Source: Candidatus Gastranaerophilales bacterium
Lineage (GTDB): Bacteria > Cyanobacteriota > Vampirovibrionia > Gastranaerophilales > Gastranaerophilaceae
Assembly (NCBI GenBank): GCA_944324055.1
Contig: CALUUV010000002.1
Coordinates: forward strand, 1-56,643
Direction of reading: 5' to 3'
Length of the DNA: 56,643 nt
Shown here: piece by piece, positions 14,631-35,540 of the stretch
Numbering within the stretch: the stretch's first letter is position 1
Layout: each line of letters starts with the position of its first letter
Program-made: the position numbers and the translations under genes
Notes under the pieces: model-generated
The model's input: the letters and a program-made list of their open reading frames with translations, nothing else
What the model was told of the DNA's origin: nothing
The model's database searches: none

Positions 14631-16268
14631 TTAAATATTCTCCTGATGGAAATTTCTGTATTTTTCATTTAATTCTTTAATTTTATCTTTATTACAATTT
14701 GTATCTTTATCTAATGAATACGGATGGTAATTTAATTTATGAAATAAACTTTGATAAGCTTCAAATGTTTTAAAATCATCAGGTGTTCCCCAACAAATAT
14801 ATTTTTCAACCTCAAAAGGCTTAACCTTGTAACCAAGTTTAACACCAGCCGAAATGCAACTGTCAACATAAAACTCGTTATTAACTCTAATATTGTTTTT
14901 GTAAAGATAATTTAGACAGTTTAAAAATATCTTTCCAGATCTAAAATAAAAAGCACCCACTATTGCATGATCCTTTTTGGGAGTATCTGAAATCGGAACT
15001 TTTACACTAACATCTTCAACAAATCCCTTTTCATCTAATTTTAACCAGCCATACGATTCTGGTTTTTTTTCGCTCGCTACATTGTTTCTGAATGAAAAAG
15101 CTAAAATATCTGCACCATTCATTTCTTCATCAAGTTTTTCAAAATCTAAAATCATAGAATTATCACAGGCACCTATAAATAAAGGTAAGTCTAAATCTTC
15201 ATTATTTAGTCCAATTTCACATGTACAAGCTTGTCCTTCTGTAACTTTATCCAACGAAATTACTTTTGCATTTGGGTAAACATCATTTATCTCTTTTTCC
15301 AAAGGATAGTTTTCAAGATGTTCTTTTAAACATACAAAAATGTTCTTACTACAATCAGGTAATGCATTACTTGCTTGTAGTATCATTGGTTTACCACTTA
15401 CTTCAATAAGTGGTTTAGGATTATCATACCCTTCATCTTTAAATCTTTGACCTCTTCCTGCAAGAGGAATTAATTTTATAGCATTATATGATTTTTTATT
15501 TAAAGGTTTATTTATCAAGGATTTAAAATATTCTGACCATTCAACATATTCTTCTAATTCACCTGGTGTCCCCCATTGTTGCATATGCTGAATTTCATAT
15601 ATTGAAACTTTTAATCCATCCTGCACCATCAAGTTGTAAATCATACTTACATAATATTCACCATTTAAGTTTATATTTTCATCCATTAATTGTTTAAAGT
15701 ATTTTTTAACATAACTTCCTTTTTTAAAATAATATGTACCATTAGATGCATATTCATTCATTCTATTAGCAGTAAATGGTTGCTTTTCTCTAATTTCTAA
15801 CATCCATTGTTTATCATCTCTCATAAAAGCATAGTTAATTTTTCCTAACATATGTGGATGAAATCCTTTATAAGCAGGAATTGCACCATCGGCATTGCGA
15901 TTTCTTGTATGTTTTAAAAAATCCTCATAGTCCCAATATGTGCCAAAATCACAATAATTTACAATAACTTCTTCTTCGTCATCAATCATATCTCTTAGTT
16001 GATACACTGCATAAACAGGACCTTTTTTATGTGGAGCAATTTCTACTATTTTCCCTTGAGGTGCAATTCTATTTAAAACATCACGCATATTAGTTTCTTT
16101 TAAATGCGCTGTATTGCAAATAAAAATTATATCTTTTTCGTTTGGGAATAAATTTACAACATGCTCAATTATTGGTTTACCATCAACTTCTATTAATGGT
16201 TTTGGTGTGGTGTATCCAGCATCAATAAAACGTTTTCCTATTCCTGTCATTGGTATTATAATTTTCAT
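14631..16268 (-). CDS. Tandem sugar-phosphate nucleotidyltransferase (two domains)
   Basis: 545 residues made of two complete NTP-transferase domains. The first (1-250) has IIIPMTGIGKRFIDAGYTTPKPLIEVDGKPII and NYCDFG. The second (264-520) has IKLIPLAGRGQRFKDEGYDNPKPLIEVSGKPMI and GACDNSM. Both keep the G-x-R-F...KPL nucleotide-binding loop and an acidic metal site. Each ends in a matching IQHMQQWGTPGEL or VEKYICWGTPDDF motif, so the halves look like an internal duplication. They would activate sugar or polyol phosphates, possibly two different ones, for the polysaccharide. An AGGAG site precedes the ATG. Confidence 0.85.
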   Translation of the reverse strand: MKIIIPMTGIGKRFIDAGYTTPKPLIEVDGKPIIEHVVNLFPNEKDIIFICNTAHLKETNMRDVLNRIAPQGKIVEIAPHKKGPVYAVYQLRDMIDDEEEVIVNYCDFGTYWDYEDFLKHTRNRNADGAIPAYKGFHPHMLGKINYAFMRDDKQWMLEIREKQPFTANRMNEYASNGTYYFKKGSYVKKYFKQLMDENINLNGEYYVSMIYNLMVQDGLKVSIYEIQHMQQWGTPGELEEYVEWSEYFKSLINKPLNKKSYNAIKLIPLAGRGQRFKDEGYDNPKPLIEVSGKPMILQASNALPDCSKNIFVCLKEHLENYPLEKEINDVYPNAKVISLDKVTEGQACTCEIGLNNEDLDLPLFIGACDNSMILDFEKLDEEMNGADILAFSFRNNVASEKKPESYGWLKLDEKGFVEDVSVKVPISDTPKKDHAIVGAFYFRSGKIFLNCLNYLYKNNIRVNNEFYVDSCISAGVKLGYKVKPFEVEKYICWGTPDDFKTFEAYQSLFHKLNYHPYSLDKDTNCNKDKIKELNEKYRNFHQENI

Positions 16269-16279
16269 AATATTCTCCT

Positions 16280-17338
16280 CTATATTTTTTGTCGATATTT
16301 CTCAGCTTCCCAATTTCCAATATATGTTATTTCTTCATCGGATAAATAATTAATCTCTCCAATTTGAGGTATAATTGACATTGTATGAAACTTAAATACA
16401 TCCATGATTTCTTTTGCCTTTTTTATATTTTTAGCAATGAAAAATAAATGATTTTTGTAAGTAACTACTTTGGGATATTCAAAAAAGTTTTCTTTATAAA
16501 GTTCCAATTCTTTGTTATTGTCAAGATCACAAACTTTTACCCCGCAATAAACCATTTTATCTGGGCAAAAAGGTTTAGTCATATATAAGTGAGGATTAGT
16601 TTTATACATTACCTCTAAATATTCATCTTCACATATTAGTGATATTAAATTTGTTTGAAAAGTATCGTTAATTTTTTTTGAAACTTTATTTGTTAATTTA
16701 TATTTCTTTAAGTTTATATTTATATAATTTTCTAATGCATCAAGGACAAACTCTTGCAATCGTTCCAGTTCTTTAATAGTATCAGCAGTAACAATCAAAC
16801 CGTGATTTTGCAAAAATACAATATCAGGAATTGTATTGCATATTGTTTGTTTTAGTTCAACTGCTAACTCTATACCTGGCGTTTTATAGTTAACAAATGC
16901 AATATTATAATTACCAAAATCTATTTTTCTTAAAATTTCTTTCCAATTTTTCCTACAACATACAATATTAACTGCAATAGGATGAGTATGTGCAGTATAT
17001 TTTTTCATCATTGAATGTAATAATGTTTCAATAGAAGGTCTGAATTCTTTTAATTTATTGGATTCATTAACAATCTTTGAACAAATTGCATCTTTTTTTC
17101 TTTTATGTATTTCTTTTTTTAATTCAACATTTTCAAATATTGATAAAACCTTATCATTTTCAACTTGCGCATAACCATAATTCTCTTCTATATCAGATAA
17201 ATATACCCCTGAAGCTTTTATTAACATTGTTCCATTGGATAGTTTTACAGAAGTATTACCTCCTCCAGCTTGAACAATATCAAAGCGTTCTCCCAAATAT
17301 TTAGACATTTTTATGAAGTCTTTTAATTCTTGTTTCAT
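16280..17338 (-). CDS. Class II aldolase/adducin family protein
   Basis: 352 residues. The N-terminal two-thirds is a class II aldolase/adducin domain: FDIVQAGGGNTSVKLSNGTMLIKASGVYLSDI is the phosphate-binding part. YTAHTHPIAVNIVCCR gives the HxH zinc ligands and FLQNHGLIVTADT the third His. A C-terminal extension of about 120 residues is not familiar. Members cleave or build fuculose/rhamnulose phosphates or act as dehydratases/epimerases. With the HAD phosphatases and nucleotidyltransferases beside it, a role in making an unusual activated sugar is likely. The start overlaps the HAD stop in an ATGA. Confidence 0.85.
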   Translation of the reverse strand: MKQELKDFIKMSKYLGERFDIVQAGGGNTSVKLSNGTMLIKASGVYLSDIEENYGYAQVENDKVLSIFENVELKKEIHKRKKDAICSKIVNESNKLKEFRPSIETLLHSMMKKYTAHTHPIAVNIVCCRKNWKEILRKIDFGNYNIAFVNYKTPGIELAVELKQTICNTIPDIVFLQNHGLIVTADTIKELERLQEFVLDALENYININLKKYKLTNKVSKKINDTFQTNLISLICEDEYLEVMYKTNPHLYMTKPFCPDKMVYCGVKVCDLDNNKELELYKENFFEYPKVVTYKNHLFFIAKNIKKAKEIMDVFKFHTMSIIPQIGEINYLSDEEITYIGNWEAEKYRQKI

Positions 17339-17997
17339 AATTTAATTCCCATCAATTCATTAAAATTATTAAAAGTAATTACATCTTTATCTTTGCATAA
17401 TTGTTCTGTCTTCCAGTAAGCTTTAATCTTTAATGCTTGAGCTCCTTGTATATCTCTTGAATAAGAATCACCTATCATACAAACTTCTGATGCGTTTAAA
17501 TTTATTTTTTCTAATGCCATTTGAAACATTTTTTTATTAGGTTTTTCAATTCCTACCTCTTCACTTGTTACAATATATTTAATATATTTTTGTAAACCTA
17601 ATTTTTCAATTTTACAATATTGAATATATGCTGTTAAATCAGTAACCAAACATATTTGTTTATCACTATTTGATGCCAAAAATTCTATTACACCATCAAA
17701 TAATTTCATTTTCTTTAATGATTCTGACCAATATATTTCATATAATGTCTTTACTAATAACAAATCTTTAATATTTAATAGCTCTAATGCTTTTTGAAAA
17801 TACAAAATTCTATTATGCGAAGAGGCAGTATTTTTTAGATTTTCATGTATATATTTTTTTGCTTCTTCGTAATGATATAAAAAATCTTTTTTTGTAAATG
17901 TTTTTGCAAATTTACATACACAATTTATTGCATAGTTATGAACTATATTATAGTCATATAATGTGTTATCTAAATCAATTAATATCCCTTGAACCAT
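17335..17997 (-). CDS. HAD-family hydrolase (subfamily I)
   Basis: 220 residues. Motif I is GILIDLDNTLYDYN (7-18, nucleophile and acid Asp), motif II VTDLTAY, motif III lysine in IEKPNKKMF, and motif IV MIGDSYSRDIQGA. A helical cap lies between motifs I and II. It is probably a sugar- or nucleotide-phosphate phosphatase for the activated-sugar route of the operon. It overlaps the end of the preceding gene by 23 bases and is coupled by ATGA to the aldolase gene. Confidence 0.9.
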   Translation of the reverse strand: MVQGILIDLDNTLYDYNIVHNYAINCVCKFAKTFTKKDFLYHYEEAKKYIHENLKNTASSHNRILYFQKALELLNIKDLLLVKTLYEIYWSESLKKMKLFDGVIEFLASNSDKQICLVTDLTAYIQYCKIEKLGLQKYIKYIVTSEEVGIEKPNKKMFQMALEKINLNASEVCMIGDSYSRDIQGAQALKIKAYWKTEQLCKDKDVITFNNFNELMGIKL

Positions 17998-20047
17998 ACT
18001 TATCCTTCATCTTTTCACTTAATAAATGTAAAATTATATAAAAAACTATACTATTTAAACCTGATGGTAATGAAAATTCTTCTGATACAATTTCATCAAT
18101 ATTTGCAACTGTTTCATATAAAATTTCCGTACAATTAAAATTATTATCGACCTGAGATATTATTTCCAAATATTGAAAATTCAAATTATTTGTATAATCC
18201 CAATTAAAATCAATTTTTTCAGCCTTTAAATAATTTATTAATTTTTCAATATTAATATTTGATGACAAGTCTAATCTTAATTTATAAACAGGTTTTTGAT
18301 CTAAATTAGTAAAATCAAAATCATCATCTGTAAAAAATTTAATTATTAAATCCGCAAAATTTTTCTGAGGTTTTATATATTGTAAAGAATCTTTAGTTCT
18401 ATTTTCAATTGAACTTAAGACTTGTTCTACTGAATAATTCCGTTCATTAACATCTCTTTTAATCTTCCAAAATTTATATAATCTTTCATCAGGATCTAAA
18501 TAAATTTTTAAATCTACAAGTTTTCTCATTGCAGGAAGATAAAAAGTATGTAGTCCAGAAAGGATAATAAAAGGTTTAGGTTTTATTATTTTAGGTTCTT
18601 CAAATTTACCTGAAGAATGATTATATTCTCTATATGTTATAGTCTCTAATTTTTTTAACTTTTTTATTTTATCTACTTGTTCATATAAATAATTTGCTTT
18701 AGGATTTAAATGTGTAAATTTAGTCCAGTTATCATCTCCTCTTTCCCATTTATGAGTTCCATCTCCTTCAAGTGTAATTAAATTAGTATTAAAAATATTT
18801 TTTAATCCTTGTAATAAAGATGATTTACCTGTACCACTATCTCCACTTATTCCTATTATTGCACTTTGGTTATCTCTGTATACTGCGTTACTTTTAACAC
18901 CAATTTTATAGTGTAAATATACAGCAAAAAGTAATGCTGTTTCAAGCAGTGTAAATATTGTGTTTCTTATTAACTCATTATTTATTTTTAAATTAATTGT
19001 ATTACTTATTATAGATAAATCGTTTAAATCTCCAATATGGCAAAATACAAAATATAATAAATAAAATATATTTAAAAAAATAAAAGAATTTCTAATAGGT
19101 GTTTTGTCTGAATATTTTATAATATAACTTATGTAAAATGGAACTAACCAAATATACCAAGCAGAACTTGTTGGAGGAATAAATAATAAAAATAATGATA
19201 ATGTCAATACTATAAATGAATCAAACAAATCATTATTAATTTTACGAAAAATTAAAAATCTAAAATAAATCAATGATGCAACAAACAATGAAATTACTAA
19301 TTTAACATTTCCTATTGGTATTGAAAGGAGAAAAAATAAATTTTGTTTATCATTCATTAATACCATATTTTGAAATCCGTTAGAAAATACATATGGTAAA
19401 ATAAAAAATAGATATAGTGCAGCTGAAATAATTACAAATTTTATAATTGATTGATATTTCTTATTTTTAAATAAATATATAATTATAATAGGTAATATTA
19501 ATAATGCATTAAGTTTTGTACTAAGAGCTAATCCATAAAAAAAAGCACTTTTTAATATTTTTTGTTTTTTTAACGCATATACTGATAGAAATAATAAAGC
19601 TACAGGAAGTAGGTCTAATTGAGAATGCATAAAACCTGAATAAATTATAATTGGAGATAAAAAATATCCTAGTATAATTAAGTGTTTCTTACTTTTATAC
19701 ATTTTACATAAGGTAAAAAAGATTGTAATATCTGCAATCAAAGTTGGAAGTTTAAATATAATATTTGTTAAAAATATATTACTTAAATGAAAAATATTAA
19801 TGAAAAATATTCCAATAGAATATACATATAACATTATTGGATGATAAGGGAATTCTAAATTTAAATGATTTGTATATACATATTCCCAAGGATTATTAAA
19901 CTTAAAACAATTAATAAAAGGTATAAATAATAAATTTTGATAATCAGATGAAAATAAACCCATTATAATAATTTTTAAAATAATTATTATAAATGTAATT
20001 AATAAAAATTGTTTTTTTTTGAATTTTAATTTCAATATATTAAACAT
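17975..20047 (-). CDS. Fusion of membrane glycosyltransferase and uridine kinase-like domain
   Basis: 690 residues from the ATG at 20045-20047, chosen because AAAGAGG lies just before it and the start overlaps the upstream stop as TAATG; a longer frame reaches 20074. Residues up to about 395 form a multi-helix GT-C-like membrane domain (LTLSLFLLFIPPTSSAWYIWLVPFY and similar helices). The remainder is soluble. It holds a Walker A, GISGDSGTGKSS (about 396-407), an EGDGTHKWERGDD loop and ILSGLHTFYLP, which match the uridine kinase/phosphoribulokinase family. Such a fusion is unusual. It may couple phosphorylation of a sugar or polyol to lipid-linked transfer; the acceptor is unknown. Confidence 0.8.
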   Translation of the reverse strand: MFNILKLKFKKKQFLLITFIIIILKIIIMGLFSSDYQNLLFIPFINCFKFNNPWEYVYTNHLNLEFPYHPIMLYVYSIGIFFINIFHLSNIFLTNIIFKLPTLIADITIFFTLCKMYKSKKHLIILGYFLSPIIIYSGFMHSQLDLLPVALLFLSVYALKKQKILKSAFFYGLALSTKLNALLILPIIIIYLFKNKKYQSIIKFVIISAALYLFFILPYVFSNGFQNMVLMNDKQNLFFLLSIPIGNVKLVISLFVASLIYFRFLIFRKINNDLFDSFIVLTLSLFLLFIPPTSSAWYIWLVPFYISYIIKYSDKTPIRNSFIFLNIFYLLYFVFCHIGDLNDLSIISNTINLKINNELIRNTIFTLLETALLFAVYLHYKIGVKSNAVYRDNQSAIIGISGDSGTGKSSLLQGLKNIFNTNLITLEGDGTHKWERGDDNWTKFTHLNPKANYLYEQVDKIKKLKKLETITYREYNHSSGKFEEPKIIKPKPFIILSGLHTFYLPAMRKLVDLKIYLDPDERLYKFWKIKRDVNERNYSVEQVLSSIENRTKDSLQYIKPQKNFADLIIKFFTDDDFDFTNLDQKPVYKLRLDLSSNINIEKLINYLKAEKIDFNWDYTNNLNFQYLEIISQVDNNFNCTEILYETVANIDEIVSEEFSLPSGLNSIVFYIILHLLSEKMKDKYGSRDIN

Positions 20048-20048
20048 A

Positions 20049-21194
20049 TTAGCCTCTTTTATTATCAAATTCACAAATTTTATATTCAGTTACAAATGAA
20101 TATTCTTTAATTGAGAATCCTTCAATCATTTCTTCTGTTGATAATGGATTAAATGAATCTCTATTTTTTGCTTTGGTATATATAACTTTCATTGGTGTGT
20201 TTGTTAATACCAACAAATCCAATAATCCACTACGCAAGCCTATCAATTCTTTTGCGTGTTTTGTTAATTCAAATATTTCACCTAAGCTCAAATCACATTG
20301 TTTGAAATCTTTGAATTTTTCTTTATTATCTTTTTTCATCACATTACAAAATACATCTGTTCCTTGCGATTCGTATTTTGTTTTCAGATCTTGCCAAAAT
20401 TCAAATTCACAATCTTCACAAGTATTTGCCTCAGGGGTGAAAATAACAAAATTATCCAAATTTAATCCTATTTTGTTAATCTTAGATTTTAATGATTTTT
20501 TTATCTTATCTGATATATTTATTTCATTTAATTCAAAATCTGAATTTTTTAGTCCCATATAATTCAATACATGGTCTTTAAAATGTATTGTTGGATTTTC
20601 TTTGTCTCTAATATTATCTTCAACACTATCAAAATGTCGTTTGGAAAACATTAATCTAAATGTTTTCTTTTGTTCTGCAACAAATTCATCCATATACAAA
20701 GAAACTTTTATTCGTTTGATTATTACAATAGGGGTGTCAGGGCATAATAGTTCAACCAAATCTTTATGATAATTTTGTAAGCCAATCAATAAAGGTTTTT
20801 TAGAACCATTTTTTTCAAAATAAGCTTTTGCTAATCTTAAAAAGAATACACTTTCTCCAATATTTGCATGCATTATATATATATCATCATATTTATCAAA
20901 AAGTTTTTTATATTTTTTATAAAAAACATTGCCTAAATTATACTCATTATATTTATGGTTAAAGAAAGAATATGTTCTTAAATTTCCAATTTGTGTAAAT
21001 TGTCTAACAGGTAAACCTAAAACTTTTATTTCTTTTGCAACACAACCCTCTGCAAATGTTTTGTGAGCTGTTACAATTCCTCCTAAAAATTTTTGCACTT
21101 TAGATGTTTTCTGTTTTTCTACTTGATAAACAGGGATTCCCAAAACAGATAAAGTTCGTATATTATTTATTTTTTGGTTTTTTATTATTCCCAA
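20049..21194 (-). CDS. Probable GT-B-like glycosyltransferase of unknown family
   Basis: 381 residues with no signal peptide or membrane helix. The N-terminus (NNIRTLSVLGIPVYQVEKQKT) resembles the leader found on many cluster glycosyltransferases. A Rossmann-like segment starts VIFTPEANTCEDCEFEFWQDL, and the C-terminal ELIGLRSGLLDLLVLTNTPMKVIY resembles the nucleotide-sugar site of heptosyltransferase-like (GT9-like) enzymes. The start is a TTG at 21192-21194, preceded by an AAGGGAAG ribosome site at the end of the upstream gene. Classification is by fold-level pattern only. Confidence 0.6.
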   Translation of the reverse strand: MGIIKNQKINNIRTLSVLGIPVYQVEKQKTSKVQKFLGGIVTAHKTFAEGCVAKEIKVLGLPVRQFTQIGNLRTYSFFNHKYNEYNLGNVFYKKYKKLFDKYDDIYIMHANIGESVFFLRLAKAYFEKNGSKKPLLIGLQNYHKDLVELLCPDTPIVIIKRIKVSLYMDEFVAEQKKTFRLMFSKRHFDSVEDNIRDKENPTIHFKDHVLNYMGLKNSDFELNEINISDKIKKSLKSKINKIGLNLDNFVIFTPEANTCEDCEFEFWQDLKTKYESQGTDVFCNVMKKDNKEKFKDFKQCDLSLGEIFELTKHAKELIGLRSGLLDLLVLTNTPMKVIYTKAKNRDSFNPLSTEEMIEGFSIKEYSFVTEYKICEFDNKRG

Positions 21195-21195
21195 T

Positions 21196-21561
21196 TTATA
21201 AATCTTCCCTTAATTCAAAATCTAACTTAAATTCACTATCTCTTTCTTTGCATACTGCATAAGCACATTTTAGTCCTGATGGTTTATCATCATTAATCAA
21301 AATTCTTTCACCCATTGGCATATCTGTTAGCAAATAGTCATATCTCAATTCATTTTCTGCCAAGAATTTTTTTAAATCTTCAAGATATTCTTCTTTTCTT
21401 GCAGTCATAAGTACAACTTTATCCTCAGAAGATATTTTTGAATAAAATTCCTTTACCCCATCGAGTAAAGTGTCATAACCATCAATTTTGTAACCGTTAT
21501 GTTTTACTAATGTTCCATCTACATCAAGTATCCAAGTTTTTGCAAGTGTTGATAATTCCAT
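21196..21561 (-). CDS. Small HAD-like phosphatase of polysaccharide type
   Basis: 121 residues. Motif I is WILDVDGTLVKHNG (11-24), followed by VVLMTARKEEYLEDL (motif II) and ILINDDKPSG (motif IV-like). It is much shorter than a standard HAD and lacks a cap, as in the capsule-biosynthesis phosphatase group. It may remove a phosphate from the sugar or polyol that the neighbouring kinase/nucleotidyltransferase handles. Its ATG abuts the upstream stop (TAAATG). Confidence 0.85.
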   Translation of the reverse strand: MELSTLAKTWILDVDGTLVKHNGYKIDGYDTLLDGVKEFYSKISSEDKVVLMTARKEEYLEDLKKFLAENELRYDYLLTDMPMGERILINDDKPSGLKCAYAVCKERDSEFKLDFELREDL

Positions 21562-23079
21562 TTACATTATCTCCCCTGCTTGGATTACTCCGTTATAGAA
21601 TGCTCCACATATACTGTCATAATCTTCCCAAGCATAAGTTGTTAAACTTAGCCAAATTACAGCATGTAAAGCTTTGATTTTATTTTTATTTACATCTGGA
21701 ACATTATCAAAGAAAAATTCTTCCATATCTTCCCAATTATTTGGTTTTATAGCAAGTTCTACTTCGTTTTCTTTAATATCAAGTGTAAATTTCTTACGAT
21801 TAAATTGGTCATAGTTTCCTTTTATTGAATAATAAAGTTTTGCCCAATCATAATCTACATCACCAAATAATTTTGTTTTACCAAAATATCCTCTTGGATC
21901 AATAAGAATAGTTTTCATATTAAATGTATCAAACATTAAATTAGAAAAAGTACAATCTCCATGAATTAATCTAAACTCATTAGGTATCATACTTGTTAAG
22001 ATTTTAGTAAACTTTTCTTTATCAAAGAAAATGTTTTTGTAATATTGACCATTTATTTTAATAAATTCTTTATCTGCAAAAGGAACAAGGTGTTCAATTT
22101 TAGATAATCTATCAAAAGTTTTAGTAATATAATTTTCAATACAATCTTCTTTATTAACTGGTTGTGCAGGTAATAGATTGTGTAATTTTTCTAATGCTTC
22201 AATGATATTTTTAAGAATATCTTCTTTTTGGCTCTTTGTTAAACAATCATATTCATAAATATTCTTCCCTTGAACGCGTTTCATTTTTAATGGTTCATAT
22301 TCATAAATCTCTGGGATGAATTCATAACCAAGTTCTTTAATATGTTTGTACCAATTAATTTCGTCAACAGCGATTTTCTTGCCTTGTTCGTTAATCCCGC
22401 GTTTGATAATAATATCTCCATCAAATTCCATACTATTAAATGGTCTGCAACGAGGAGTTGAATCATTGTTATCAGAATAAGACAATAATGTTCCAATCTC
22501 TTTTGAACCATATAAATCTAATCTATTAAATTTGATATCTTGTTGAGATAACCAACCTACTAATGCTCCTTCTTCTGAGATTCCTTCAAGATATGATTTG
22601 TTTTCAAATATAAATAAGCCTGCAATCCCATTTTCTTTAGAAGGTTCTTTAACAAACTTGCCATCAATGTATGACCAACGACATTCAAAATCTTTAGAAA
22701 TTCCGATATAATTCCCTTTTACTTCATTATTTACCCCAACTGGAATTTGAAATCCTTCTGATAATATCAAATCACACCACATAATCATAAAAGGTTCATT
22801 AGAATCAAAAGGAGAAATAGCTTCTTTTATCCCTGAAATAGTTCCTTTTTTAGTAGCCTTAATTACACGATAATTATATTTATTTCCAAATGCAGCAAGA
22901 TATTTTTCTAAAACATCTGTTTTATAATCTGCAATAATAGTAAACTCTGCTTGTGGGAACTTTTGAAACGCATAAAAAATAATTGGAAGATTATTAACAG
23001 GTACCAAACACTTAGGCTTATTTCTTGTTAAACCCTCTAATCTTGTCCCTTTACCACCAGCTTGAATAACTATCTTCAT
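21562..23079 (-). CDS. Nucleotidyltransferase-kinase fusion, first gene of switched operon
   Basis: 505 residues. The N-terminal NTP-transferase domain starts VIQAGGKGTRLEGLTRNKPKCLVPV. The C-terminal half is an aminoglycoside/choline-kinase-like domain with the catalytic HGDCTFSN (373-380) and metal-binding ILIDPRG (391-397). This domain pair is reminiscent of LicC plus LicA fused, so it may phosphorylate and activate an alcohol or sugar. Residues near 114-119 read PVGVNN, arising from an ATTTACCCC repeat at 22728-22736. There is no clear ribosome site; the start codon overlaps the outer edge of the inversion site at 23078-23101, so expression is expected to depend on the orientation of the adjacent promoter segment. 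Confidence 0.85.
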   Translation of the reverse strand: MKIVIQAGGKGTRLEGLTRNKPKCLVPVNNLPIIFYAFQKFPQAEFTIIADYKTDVLEKYLAAFGNKYNYRVIKATKKGTISGIKEAISPFDSNEPFMIMWCDLILSEGFQIPVGVNNEVKGNYIGISKDFECRWSYIDGKFVKEPSKENGIAGLFIFENKSYLEGISEEGALVGWLSQQDIKFNRLDLYGSKEIGTLLSYSDNNDSTPRCRPFNSMEFDGDIIIKRGINEQGKKIAVDEINWYKHIKELGYEFIPEIYEYEPLKMKRVQGKNIYEYDCLTKSQKEDILKNIIEALEKLHNLLPAQPVNKEDCIENYITKTFDRLSKIEHLVPFADKEFIKINGQYYKNIFFDKEKFTKILTSMIPNEFRLIHGDCTFSNLMFDTFNMKTILIDPRGYFGKTKLFGDVDYDWAKLYYSIKGNYDQFNRKKFTLDIKENEVELAIKPNNWEDMEEFFFDNVPDVNKNKIKALHAVIWLSLTTYAWEDYDSICGAFYNGVIQAGEIM

Positions 23080-23101
23080 AACAAACTATCCATTGTGTTA
23101 T
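23078..23101 (-). repeat. Inverted recombination site, gene-proximal
   Basis: 24 bases: outer arm ATAACAAAC, 6-bp core TATCCA, inner arm TTGTGTTAT, a tyrosine-recombinase-type layout. It matches 23240-23263 in inverted orientation at 22 of 24 positions, with the core and inner arm identical. The outer arm overlaps the start codon of the gene ending at 23079. Confidence 0.8.
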
Positions 23102-23239
23102 ATACCTAAAACTTATGTGTATTATGATATCATAACCATTTTTTAATACAAGTATAATGTAACAAATTATGTTGTAAAATTTGGAAATATATTTAAAAAA
23201 TGTATATACGTTAAAAAAAATCAAAAAATTATTATTTTC
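23102..23239 (-). promoter_or_regulatory. Putative invertible promoter segment
   Basis: 138 AT-rich bases between the two inverted sites. In the present orientation the segment reads toward the operon starting at 23079. Elements shared with 35402-35540 (upstream of the second polysaccharide operon, same relative orientation) include CTTGTATTAA, TATGAT and a CATAAT near the gene. Farther upstream is a conserved block of about 55 bases around ACAAATTATGT and ATATACGTTAAAAA (plus-strand reading). Which hexamers are the true -35/-10 is not settled. If inverted, it would read toward and antisense to the recombinase gene. Confidence 0.65.
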
Positions 23240-23263
23240 ATAACACAATGGATATTATGTTAT
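23240..23263 (+). repeat. Inverted recombination site, recombinase-proximal
   Basis: Inner arm ATAACACAA, core TGGATA, outer arm TTATGTTAT; the inverted partner of 23078-23101. A further ATGTTATA lies just outside at 23268-23275 and may be an accessory binding half-site. It ends 24 bases from the stop codon of the recombinase gene. Confidence 0.8.
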
Positions 23264-23287
23264 ATTTTATGTTATAAGAAATCATAT

Positions 23288-23830
23288 TTATAAAATAAAG
23301 TTTCGGTAGCTTTCAAATATCTCGTCTTCTTCTATTCCTATATATCTCAATGTTATGCTTGGGGATGAATGGTTGAATATCTTCTGTAAAATGACTACAT
23401 CTTTAAACTTCTGATAATGATGATATCCAAAAGTTTTTCTTAAAGTGTGTGTTCCTACTTTATATTTTATCCCTGCCTCTCTGCAGGCTGAATTGATTAT
23501 TAAATAAGCGTTACAGCGTTCAAGTCTATTAGAAAATTTTGTCATAAATAATGGTTCATCATCTGAACGATTCTTTATATATTTATTTATTAGTTGTTCA
23601 AGTTTTGAATTTATTGGAAACTTTTTTCGTTTACCTGTTTTCTGTTCTTCTAGTTCTATAAAATCTTTATTCCTTACATCCCCTACATCTAAACCCAAAA
23701 TGTCAGATATTCTTAACCCACTATTTGTTCCCAAAACAAAAAATAATAAATCTCGTTGATTCTTTCTTGCTAAGATTGATTCAACTTTTTTAATTGTCTC
23801 AATATCCCTTATTGGTTCTACTATTTTCAT
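23288..23830 (-). CDS. Small tyrosine recombinase, probable promoter invertase
   Basis: 180 residues, consisting only of the catalytic domain of a lambda-integrase-type tyrosine recombinase. The active site is complete: R40 in GLRISDIL, K64 (or K67) in the beta turn, H128 and R131 in HTLRKT, H154 in FNHSS, and Y163 in LRYIG as nucleophile. It lacks the N-terminal core-binding SAM-like domain, like the FimB/FimE invertases of comparable size. Its 3' end is 24 bases from the inverted sites at 23078-23263, so the obvious role is switching the 138-bp promoter segment. It lies between msbA (122-base gap) and the switched operon, on the same strand, with a GGAG-like ribosome site. Confidence 0.92.
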   Translation of the reverse strand: MKIVEPIRDIETIKKVESILARKNQRDLLFFVLGTNSGLRISDILGLDVGDVRNKDFIELEEQKTGKRKKFPINSKLEQLINKYIKNRSDDEPLFMTKFSNRLERCNAYLIINSACREAGIKYKVGTHTLRKTFGYHHYQKFKDVVILQKIFNHSSPSITLRYIGIEEDEIFESYRNFIL

Positions 23831-33131: not shown

Positions 33132-34286
33132 TTAAAACTTATAATTTCTACTGTAAAATTTTTTTAGATTATTTATAAACTTTTCCTCTGAATACAAAAA
33201 AGAATGCATATTATAAACTTCTTTAATAGTACTTGTATATAGATTTTTATTGTTTATAAGATTTTTCATGTAAGTAGTAATATTTTTTTGCATATCTGTA
33301 TAATTTTTAAATACACTATATAATTGATCCCATTCGATTGAAGGGAAAAATCTTTCGTTATAAATTGAAAAACCAATGGACCCTACATAATATGGCATAG
33401 TAAAATAACCATCCATTCCTTCGCCAAATGTAATAGTAAAATATGCTTTTGATATTAAATCCATATAATCATCAAAAGTCATATTTTGAACAATAATTAG
33501 TTTAAAATCAGGCATTTCAATTTTTAATTTTTCAATAATTTGTTGCTTCATATAATTATCATCTGGTGATAAAACAATAATTTTCTCTTTTTCTTCAAAA
33601 GAATATGATTTATAGCCTTTTAAATCTATATGTACAGATAATAAATGTGTTGGAATACCCCATTTGTTACATACTTCTTGGGTTGCATACCTATCATGAG
33701 CTATTGTCTGAGTGATATTTGTTGTTAGTTCTTTTAATTTATTAATTTTTTTAGGTTCTGGCATCAATTCGATATTCTGGTTTAGAATGTTTATCTGGAA
33801 ACTAGGTATATTTTTTAGAATTTTCTTATCTTTTCTTGTTAAATGTTTATAAAATCTTTCTTTACACATATATTCAGGAATATGTAGAATTAATTCTTGA
33901 ACATTTGATAAATTATTGATAAATTGTTCCCAACGATAGATTTTTTCTTCGTTTTTGAAATAATGATTATGAGTATATGTATATTCCCCTGGTTCTGTAA
34001 TAATTAAACATTCAGCATCCAAACAAATTTCTCTTGAATATTTGCAAATAGAAAATATTGACATAATTCCACCATTAACCATTTCATTTGATGGGATTAT
34101 AAATGCAATTATTTTTTTAGCATTTTTTATATGACTCAAATCATATTTATCTTGTTCTTTTTTGTATTCTCTATTTAATAATTTTCTTTCATAATTAGGA
34201 CAACTAAATTTTATTCCTAAAAACCTGAAATTTAGATGTGTTCTTGTTTTGTTATAAGAAAATATGTTTGAAATATTTAGTTTCAT
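33132..34286 (-). CDS. Putative glycosyltransferase of uncertain family
   Basis: 384 residues. The N-terminal 45 residues (NFRFLGIKFSCPNYERKL) resemble the leaders of cluster glycosyltransferases. A segment near 67-85 (IAFIIPSNEMVNGGIMSIF) and a C-terminal Rossmann-like half suggest a GT-B fold. In that half LIIVQNMTFDDYMDLISKAYFTITFGEGMDGYFTMPYY places an acidic EGMDG loop where a nucleotide-sugar would sit. This pattern recalls WsaF-like rhamnosyltransferases but is not decisive. The start overlaps the stop of the aminotransferase in ATGA. Confidence 0.6.
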   Translation of the reverse strand: MKLNISNIFSYNKTRTHLNFRFLGIKFSCPNYERKLLNREYKKEQDKYDLSHIKNAKKIIAFIIPSNEMVNGGIMSIFSICKYSREICLDAECLIITEPGEYTYTHNHYFKNEEKIYRWEQFINNLSNVQELILHIPEYMCKERFYKHLTRKDKKILKNIPSFQINILNQNIELMPEPKKINKLKELTTNITQTIAHDRYATQEVCNKWGIPTHLLSVHIDLKGYKSYSFEEKEKIIVLSPDDNYMKQQIIEKLKIEMPDFKLIIVQNMTFDDYMDLISKAYFTITFGEGMDGYFTMPYYVGSIGFSIYNERFFPSIEWDQLYSVFKNYTDMQKNITTYMKNLINNKNLYTSTIKEVYNMHSFLYSEEKFINNLKKFYSRNYKF

Positions 34287-35386
34287 CTAACACACTCCCT
34301 TATAGTCTTGCTAATTTTGATTACATCATCATTAGATAATTCATAATATAACGGTAAACAAGCTATTCTTGATGAAATATCTTCTGATATAGGGCAATCA
34401 AACTTATCTTTTAAATATGGTAATTTATTCAAGCTTGGATAGAAATATCGTCTTGGATAAATTCCTTCCTTGTTTAATTCTTCAAATACTTTTAATAATT
34501 CTGTTTCGTTTTTAAACAATACAGGATAATAAGCATAATTGTATTCTAAATTTTCTTGTTGTTTTGGTCGTTGAATATATCCTAAAAGCTCTCTGTCATA
34601 TAATTCTGAGATATATTTTCTTTTTGCAATGATTTCTTCAATATAAGGTAAATTTGAAAGTCCCATTGCTGCATTGAATTCTGATTGTTTTGCATTAATC
34701 CCCAAGCAATAATGTTCATCTCCTTGATGACCAAAACGTTTAATTAATTCTAATTTATCAGAAATAGTTTTGTCTTTTACAATACAAGCACCACCTTCTA
34801 TTGTGTGGAATAGTTTTGTTGAATGGAAACTACAAGTAGAAATATCACCAAAACCTAGTAATGATTTTCCTTTGTATTTTGAACCAAAACAATGAGCTGC
34901 ATCATAAATTACTTTAATATTATATTTATCTGCTATTTTTTGTATCTCATCAATATTACAAGCATATCCAAAAACATGAACAGGCATAATAGCTTTAGTT
35001 TTTTCTGTTATTGCTGATTCAATTTGTTCAACATCTATTGTGAAATTATTTGGTTCTATATCAACAAATACTGGTTTACATCTTTCCCATAATATCGCGG
35101 ATGTAGTTGCAACATAACTGAAAGGTGTGGTTATAATTTCGCCATCTTCAATATCCAATGCTTTTAATGCAATCTGTAGTGCTATTGTTCCATTGGTTAC
35201 ATAATGGAAATTATTAATATCCAAATATTGTGAAAGCTTTGATTCCAATTCTTTCAACAAATTTCCTTGATTAGTTAGTTGGCAGGATTCAAAAATCTGT
35301 TTTACATAGCTTTCATAGATTCTAATATCAGGTAAGAATGATTTAGTGACATATATATTACCTTTATTACTACCAACTAAAACCAT
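34283..35386 (-). CDS. DegT/DnrJ/EryC1/StrS sugar aminotransferase
   Basis: 367 residues, full length. PLP-binding elements are visible: the TNGTIAL loop (64-70), D162 and H165 in YDAAHCFG, the Schiff-base K191 in SFHSTKLFHTIEGGA, and the C-terminal PRRYFYPSLNKLPYL substrate loop. It transfers an amino group to a nucleotide-linked keto-sugar, giving an amino-sugar for the glycan. It is the first gene of the second polysaccharide operon, with a GAGG ribosome site, and is preceded by a promoter region (35402-35540) that is a diverged copy of the invertible segment at 23102-23239. Confidence 0.95.
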   Translation of the reverse strand: MVLVGSNKGNIYVTKSFLPDIRIYESYVKQIFESCQLTNQGNLLKELESKLSQYLDINNFHYVTNGTIALQIALKALDIEDGEIITTPFSYVATTSAILWERCKPVFVDIEPNNFTIDVEQIESAITEKTKAIMPVHVFGYACNIDEIQKIADKYNIKVIYDAAHCFGSKYKGKSLLGFGDISTCSFHSTKLFHTIEGGACIVKDKTISDKLELIKRFGHQGDEHYCLGINAKQSEFNAAMGLSNLPYIEEIIAKRKYISELYDRELLGYIQRPKQQENLEYNYAYYPVLFKNETELLKVFEELNKEGIYPRRYFYPSLNKLPYLKDKFDCPISEDISSRIACLPLYYELSNDDVIKISKTIRECVR

Positions 35387-35401: not shown

Positions 35402-35540
35402 AATAATCAATTATGATTTATCGTATCATAAAAAAATATTAAAACAAGGTTTTTATTACAAATTATGTCATATTTTTAGAAAATATATTTAAAAATGGAT
35501 ATACGTTAAAAATTTTTAAAACTAATCTAAATAATTATTA
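35402..35540 (-). promoter_or_regulatory. Fixed copy of the polysaccharide promoter region
   Basis: It aligns with 23102-23239 in the same orientation relative to the downstream gene. Shared features include ACAAATTATGT, AAATATATTTAAAAA, ATATACGTTAAAAA and a CTTGT...TTATGAT stretch. The flanking inverted sites are absent, so this copy should not invert. It lies between the aminotransferase start and the alr 3' end. Confidence 0.6.

Follow-up and report, generated by a model that had tools for sequence, protein, structure and literature searches.

A candidate phase-variable promoter switch beside a minimal tyrosine recombinase in the gut lineage Gastranaerophilales

Introduction

FimB and FimE of Escherichia coli are tyrosine invertases that act on a promoter inverton, fimS. 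Two further systems are relevant here: RecV of Clostridioides difficile, a tyrosine recombinase working on several promoter switches, some of them in trans, and Mpi of Bacteroides fragilis, a recombinase of the serine type (PMC5903667).

We analyzed a stretch of 56,643 nucleotides (the window) from a Candidatus Gastranaerophilales genome, in which a sequence-only reading had proposed a promoter switch with the geometry of FimB/FimE- and Mpi-type systems. The Gastranaerophilales are non-photosynthetic gut relatives of the Cyanobacteria. The proposed likeness held for function and failed for family. As in FimB/FimE-fimS, a tyrosine recombinase consisting of the catalytic domain only lies beside a putatively invertible promoter that leads into a surface-structure operon. 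However, the enzyme shows 23-25% identity to FimB and FimE and falls far below the cut-offs of the NCBIfam invertase models, scoring 42.3 bits against NF007371 (cut-off 222) and 31.3 bits against NF007370 (cut-off 221). There is one recombinase here instead of the two at fimS; the sites are near-palindromic, 24 bp long and 162 bp apart, whereas the fimS repeats of strain MG1655 are 9 bp long and 305 bp apart, and one site overlaps a start codon, unlike fimS.

Compared by description, the Gastranaerophilales enzyme differs from RecV in usually lying beside its switch at a fixed spacing, with sites that share arms and differ in their cores. With Mpi it would share the control of surface-polysaccharide operons by invertible promoters in a gut commensal, but catalytic class and site architecture are different; since Mpi is a serine recombinase, this likeness is one of function and not of family. 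Fold, catalytic hexad and dif-like sites with two arms and a 6-bp centre are shared with XerC, XerD, XerA and XerH. In contrast to these, the enzyme has no N-terminal core-binding domain, stays below all Xer cut-offs and is accompanied by paired inverted sites around promoters rather than one dif per chromosome. In function the element is very probably an invertible promoter like fimS or the RecV switches; in family its recombinase belongs neither to FimB/FimE nor to Mpi nor to Xer.

Results

Two inverted sites flank a predicted promoter

The features of the locus are compiled in Table 1. Coordinates of the two sites and their 22 matches in 24 positions were re-derived from the sequence and found exact in the inverted register. 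The distal site reads ATAACAAAC-TATCCA-TTGTGTTAT and the proximal site ATAACACAA-TGGATA-TTATGTTAT. As had been read from the letters, all four 9-bp arms open with ATAACA when read outside-in, the 6-bp cores are oppositely oriented, 138 bp lie between the sites, and the distance from the proximal site to the recombinase stop codon is correct. The overlap with the start codon was also confirmed: the distal site shares two bases with the ATG at 23077-23079 (minus strand) of the 505-aa gene. Each site is nearly palindromic in itself. A match of 22/24 at comparable spacing was reached by none of 400 dinucleotide shuffles of the region. Pattern searches of the 2.07-Mb genome returned exact ATAACA-N12-TGTTAT at just the two switch sites, and the reversed control pattern matched once.

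Table 1. Features of the switch locus in the window and of the second inverton in related genomes
Feature	Position	Strand	Basis or remark
Remaining operon: HAD-like, unknown, PRK-domain, HAD, class II aldolase, double NTP transferase	14631-21561	-	ORFs, Pfam
First operon gene, 505-aa NTP transferase and phosphotransferase-like protein	21562-23079	-	Pfam NTP_transf_3, APH
Distal inverted recombination site	23078-23101	+	Core 23087-23092 TATCCA; overlaps start codon of first operon gene
Invertible promoter segment (proposed), 138 bp	23102-23239	.	82-87% conserved with L034/L036/L037; homologous pairs inverted in relatives
Predicted promoter	23124-23151	-	TTGTAT (23146-23151)-N16-TATCAT (23124-23129), TG extended -10, toward operon
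Recombinase-proximal recombination site	23240-23263	+	Core 23249-23254 TGGATA; 24 bp from recombinase stop codon
180-aa minimal tyrosine recombinase, catalytic domain only, proposed invertase	23288-23830	-	Pfam, hexad, AlphaFold
Static homologue of invertible promoter	35418-35512	-	76% identity over 96 bp; before DegT-like gene 34283-35386
Second inverton of the genus	G001:C17 (L149), G004:C104 (L150), G005:C37 (L151), G007:C13 (L152)		

The proximal site stands at the equivalent place in four related loci (L034, L035, L036 and L037); position and start-codon overlap of the distal site are common to L034 and L036. The gene behind the distal site is a different one in each near relative whose sequence was readable there, encoding an NTP transferase in the window, a Glf-like protein in L034 and a glycosyltransferase-like protein in L036, and the overlap is retained despite these differing genes. 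A mini-ORF of five codons, ATGGATAGTTTGTTATGA (23076-23093, minus strand), lies within the distal site with its stop overlapping the operon ATG; the motif also occurs in L034 and L036. It may serve translational coupling or be a by-product of the site.

The segment between the sites had been taken for the promoter region of the operon. This assignment was supported by a predicted promoter with extended -10, whose transcription start is predicted near 23117, and by copies of the same block that lack the sites, one in the window and others in two relatives. The aligned -35 and extended -10 blocks are retained in three invertible and three static promoter copies; the -10 hexamer is imperfect. Generic promoter scans found no excess of promoter-like sites, and promoter and terminator scans alone were uninformative. 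No recombination sites were found at the static promoter of the window. The static block of the window stands after the alanine racemase gene (alr), and in the window and in genome G005 the block is clearly directed into polysaccharide-type genes. Since the segment promoter likewise reads into the operon, the assembled orientation is most likely ON, with the predicted promoter pointing into the operon. In G001 the recombinase and switch module directly follow alr, at the place where G005 carries the static promoter; apparently, fixed and invertible versions of the promoter interchange in evolution.

The ORFs of the operon are co-directional and tightly packed, neighbours being separated by a few bases or overlapping by as little. 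Their domain content points to a role in surface polysaccharide.

A minimal tyrosine recombinase next to the sites

The 180-aa protein matched Pfam Phage_integrase (1e-25) over residues 15-165. This tyrosine recombinase domain was the only one found; the serine recombinase catalytic domain of the Mpi family was not detected. The active site had been described as complete, and R40, K64, H128, R131, H154 and Y163 are indeed present, all six being invariant in 65 homologues. An AlphaFold model reached a mean pLDDT of 90.6, and the solved folds nearest to it were XerA (PDB 5hxy, the best), XerH and integrase catalytic cores. The scores against the Xer models nevertheless stayed below each cut-off (XerA 92 bits against 220, XerD 65 against 330, XerC 63 against 335).

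Most of the metagenome-assembled genomes (MAGs) that contain relatives at 86-95% identity bear the name Candidatus Gastranaerophilales. In a sample of 117 genomes from across the order, 77 encoded a minimal recombinase of this type, either active or dead. Typical members also occur in L072 and L082, records titled Fusobacterium and Clostridium MAGs; these bins are possibly mislabelled or contaminated.

The module in related genomes

Among 47 loci with enough downstream sequence, 31 carried an inverted 24-mer pair downstream of the recombinase, and of 559 control windows taken within these loci just 1 did; a pair was required to match at ≥20/24 positions, with a start-to-start distance of 100-240 and within 460 bp after the recombinase. 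The usual spacing was 150-178 bp. About a third of the homologous loci showed no recognisable pair beside the recombinase.

Site sequences were clade-specific, with ATAACA, TCAACA, TATACA and GCCCCA types. The core was identical within the pair in 27 of the 31 loci (within-pair core identity 94-100%, a value slightly understated because the automatic 24-mer register was shifted for GCCCCA-type and a few other sites). Between loci, agreement at core positions 11-15 was 31-40%, which is near chance, and 22 distinct cores were counted. Divergence of the arms tracked that of the recombinase (Mantel r 0.62, p 2e-4, near relatives removed), with r 0.33 for the core. Arms that co-diverge with the enzyme and cores that match within each pair are what a tyrosine recombinase needs, as the protein reads the arms and the cores have to match only each other. 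The genes neighbouring the module differ between genomes.

Genomes G002 and G003 encode orthologous recombinases (77-79% identity) without an adjacent pair; thus, adjacency is not obligatory. Both contain many dispersed near-palindromic ATAACA...TGTTAT sites, some paired and others single. Inverted pairs with private cores were seen at G002 C10:40106/40216 and C2:251413/252160 and on C3, C9 and C1 of G003, and each of the contigs G002:C7 and G003:C23 has a site of this type at one of its ends.

Inversion at homologous sites

Natural inversions were observed at homologous pairs. L083 and L084, loci from two MAGs with flanks 98.7% identical over 6.5 kb, differ at the switch by a flip of the segment alone: 107 differences in colinear alignment fell to 0 of 201 positions after in-silico inversion. 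For L085 and L089, 113 differences were reduced to 6 of 198.

A second pair in the genus of the window shares the arms of the window's switch but has the core GTTCTA and lies between a TRAM/uracil-methyltransferase-type gene and the gene for a LysM protein of about 1000 aa. This pair inverts among four relatives that carry the recombinase under study; G001 and G007 have one orientation, G004 and G005 the opposite. Inversion at the core reduced the differences between G001 and G004/G005 from 43 to 0 of 137, and the outer arms, which are unlike between the two sites, stayed in place across orientations. The pair is absent from the genome of the window, in whose 89.7%-complete assembly the methyltransferase gene was present and the LysM partner gene was not found. 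Just a half-site-like TTATGTTAT is left beside the methyltransferase gene; this second switch appears to have decayed there.

The contig of L037, whose recombinase is an 86% orthologue, runs from gene through site, segment and site into a perfect reverse-complemented copy of the gene-side flank (50 bp, 0 mismatches, 21 of these bp belonging to the gene), the segment itself not being self-complementary. Such a contig connects an ON junction to an OFF junction, which means that the reads of that sample contained both. A genuine duplication of the gene tail in inverted orientation might in principle give this topology, but is seen in no orthologue. In sum, both orientations were found for homologous pairs, and the contig topology of L037 indicates them for the orthologous position as well.

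Contig ends accumulated at the switch: in 6 of 57 cases the contig breaks off no more than 60 bp from the 3' end of the recombinase gene (0.23 expected, p about 1e-7), compared with 0 of 57 for the 5' end. In L045, L053, L068 and L081 the break falls on the inner edge of a site, the branch point expected where both orientations coexist. OFF junctions were searched for in other contigs of the window's own genome and none was found.

Proposed mechanism and alternative explanations

These inversions, the two junctions of L037, the contig breaks at sites and the conserved geometry of recombinase and pair support the phase-switch proposal of the sequence-only reading. The element in the window is very probably a phase-variable promoter switch worked by the adjacent 180-aa recombinase. 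The recombinase would bind both inverted sites by their 9-bp arms and 6-bp core and synapse them, and strand exchange within the identical cores would invert the DNA between them. When ON, the promoter would read across the distal site into the operon; when OFF, it would face the recombinase gene from its 3' side, leaving the operon without a promoter. The two sites have identical inner arms and cores, so that inversion would turn the promoter round and leave the start-codon region unchanged. From conserved adjacency and arm co-divergence, we infer that this recombinase is the agent. Transcription of the operon should follow the orientation of the segment, given the predicted promoter. Promoters of this kind occur in either orientation among related genomes, and it is therefore almost certain that these bacteria turn surface-sugar genes on and off by inverting DNA.

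The switch could be real and yet be inverted by another recombinase, chromosomal of Xer type or encoded elsewhere, with the adjacent gene incidental or merely helping. The site pairs of G002 and G003 that lie far from the recombinase gene make action in trans possible, and the window's genome also encodes two longer relatives of Xer size, whose open frames span 289 and 305 aa. These are only about 25% identical to the minimal recombinase, which is the single one of its kind in that genome; moreover, adjacency is kept in most loci and the arms co-diverge with the adjacent enzyme, and we regard this explanation as quite unlikely. Alternatively, the copy in the window might be a locked relic while homologous switches work elsewhere. 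In the window, as in its four nearest orthologues, the main contig shows the ON orientation, and the genus's second switch appears decayed in the same genome. However, identical cores and inner arms are retained, the enzyme is intact, and the L037 contig carries both junctions. A locked state is unlikely; the strain of the window presumably still switches.

The near-palindromic structure of each site, together with isolated palindromic copies in G002 and G003, would also suit non-recombining operators of a transcription regulator. This reading was rejected as extremely improbable: it is contradicted by the exact inversions at homologous pairs, by cores that are pair-identical but variable between loci, and by contigs that break at site edges. 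It is also very unlikely that the recombinase is the integrase of a mobile element and the sites its attachment ends. Its closest relatives in the phage database, from Streptococcus prophages (45-48% identical), are annotated as integrase or site-specific recombinase, and the neighbours of the module vary between genomes. Excision requires direct repeats, but the sites are inverted and enclose just a promoter without cargo, on which grounds the integrase reading was rejected. Three loci of Streptococcus and Geobacillus phage relatives (45-47%) were inspected for comparable flanking inverted pairs, and none at ≥18/20 was found.

Novelty and significance

The sequence-only reading knew of no described example in this lineage, and the open-access literature searched agreed: no paper there links the Gastranaerophilales or Melainabacteria with phase variation by DNA inversion. 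Unreported calls from this order may be contained in the large published surveys of invertons. Within the open-access literature searched, phase variation by DNA inversion is new for this uncultured gut lineage (Melainabacteria/Vampirovibrionia); switching of surface polysaccharide would have arisen or been acquired in yet another deep gut lineage. The switch offers a read-mappable marker of phase state for hard-to-grow organisms. Pair-private cores suggest a way for one enzyme family to serve several switches without scrambling the genome.

Taken across the order, it is rather probable that Gastranaerophilales possess lineage-wide, self-contained modules of a recombinase and an inverton of about 160 bp, insulated by private 6-bp cores and with arms co-evolving with the enzyme, one sub-branch driving a dead paralogue of the recombinase that could feed back.

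Genes behind related switches

This full-length, catalytically dead paralogue is the first gene behind the switch in L039, L042/L187, L066, L087, L190, L191, L192, L193, L195 and L196. It was found in 12 of 117 genomes, in another branch of Gastranaerophilales, and not in the genus of the window. R40 is replaced by D, N, A or K in most copies, K64 is absent and H128 lost, usually together with H154Q and Y163F. Wherever the flank was readable (7 of 7), the gene lay directly downstream of an active recombinase, with an inverted pair matching at 21-24 of 24 positions between the two in six of the seven. Being full length and conserved across genera, the paralogue is not simply decaying. It is possibly a feedback regulator of switching, a design that can be tested.

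An orthologue of the 505-aa first gene is found in G002 (C14:53-333, L155) behind a promoter flanked by inverted sites, one on its left and three on its right, on a different contig from the recombinase of that genome. L155 is possibly a multi-state or bidirectional switch.

The switch found in both orientations in L083 (2751-5981) and L084 fronts a gene for a 1076-aa protein with PLD and SNF2 helicase domains (PADLOC 'HKD+Snf2'), which suggests phase-variable anti-phage defence. In L082 and L085 the switch is followed by genes for a vWA protein and a PP2C phosphatase; L086 and L089 encode a recombinase nearly identical to that of L082/L085, yet have other genes behind the switch. With the PLD/SNF2 helicase and the vWA-PP2C pair behind such promoters, the module seems to switch functions other than sugars as well.

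In L038, L041, L048 and L067 the recombinase comes after a gene of about 150 aa from one common family, and in L067 a serine recombinase-like gene lies downstream of it; these surroundings are perhaps a prophage or mobile context. Eubacterium multiforme (L091) encodes a 185-aa recombinase, 37% identical, followed after about 320 bp by an inverted pair (21/24, 106 bp apart) and then by a serine recombinase-like gene. The design of the module may extend to Firmicutes, as this locus would suggest.
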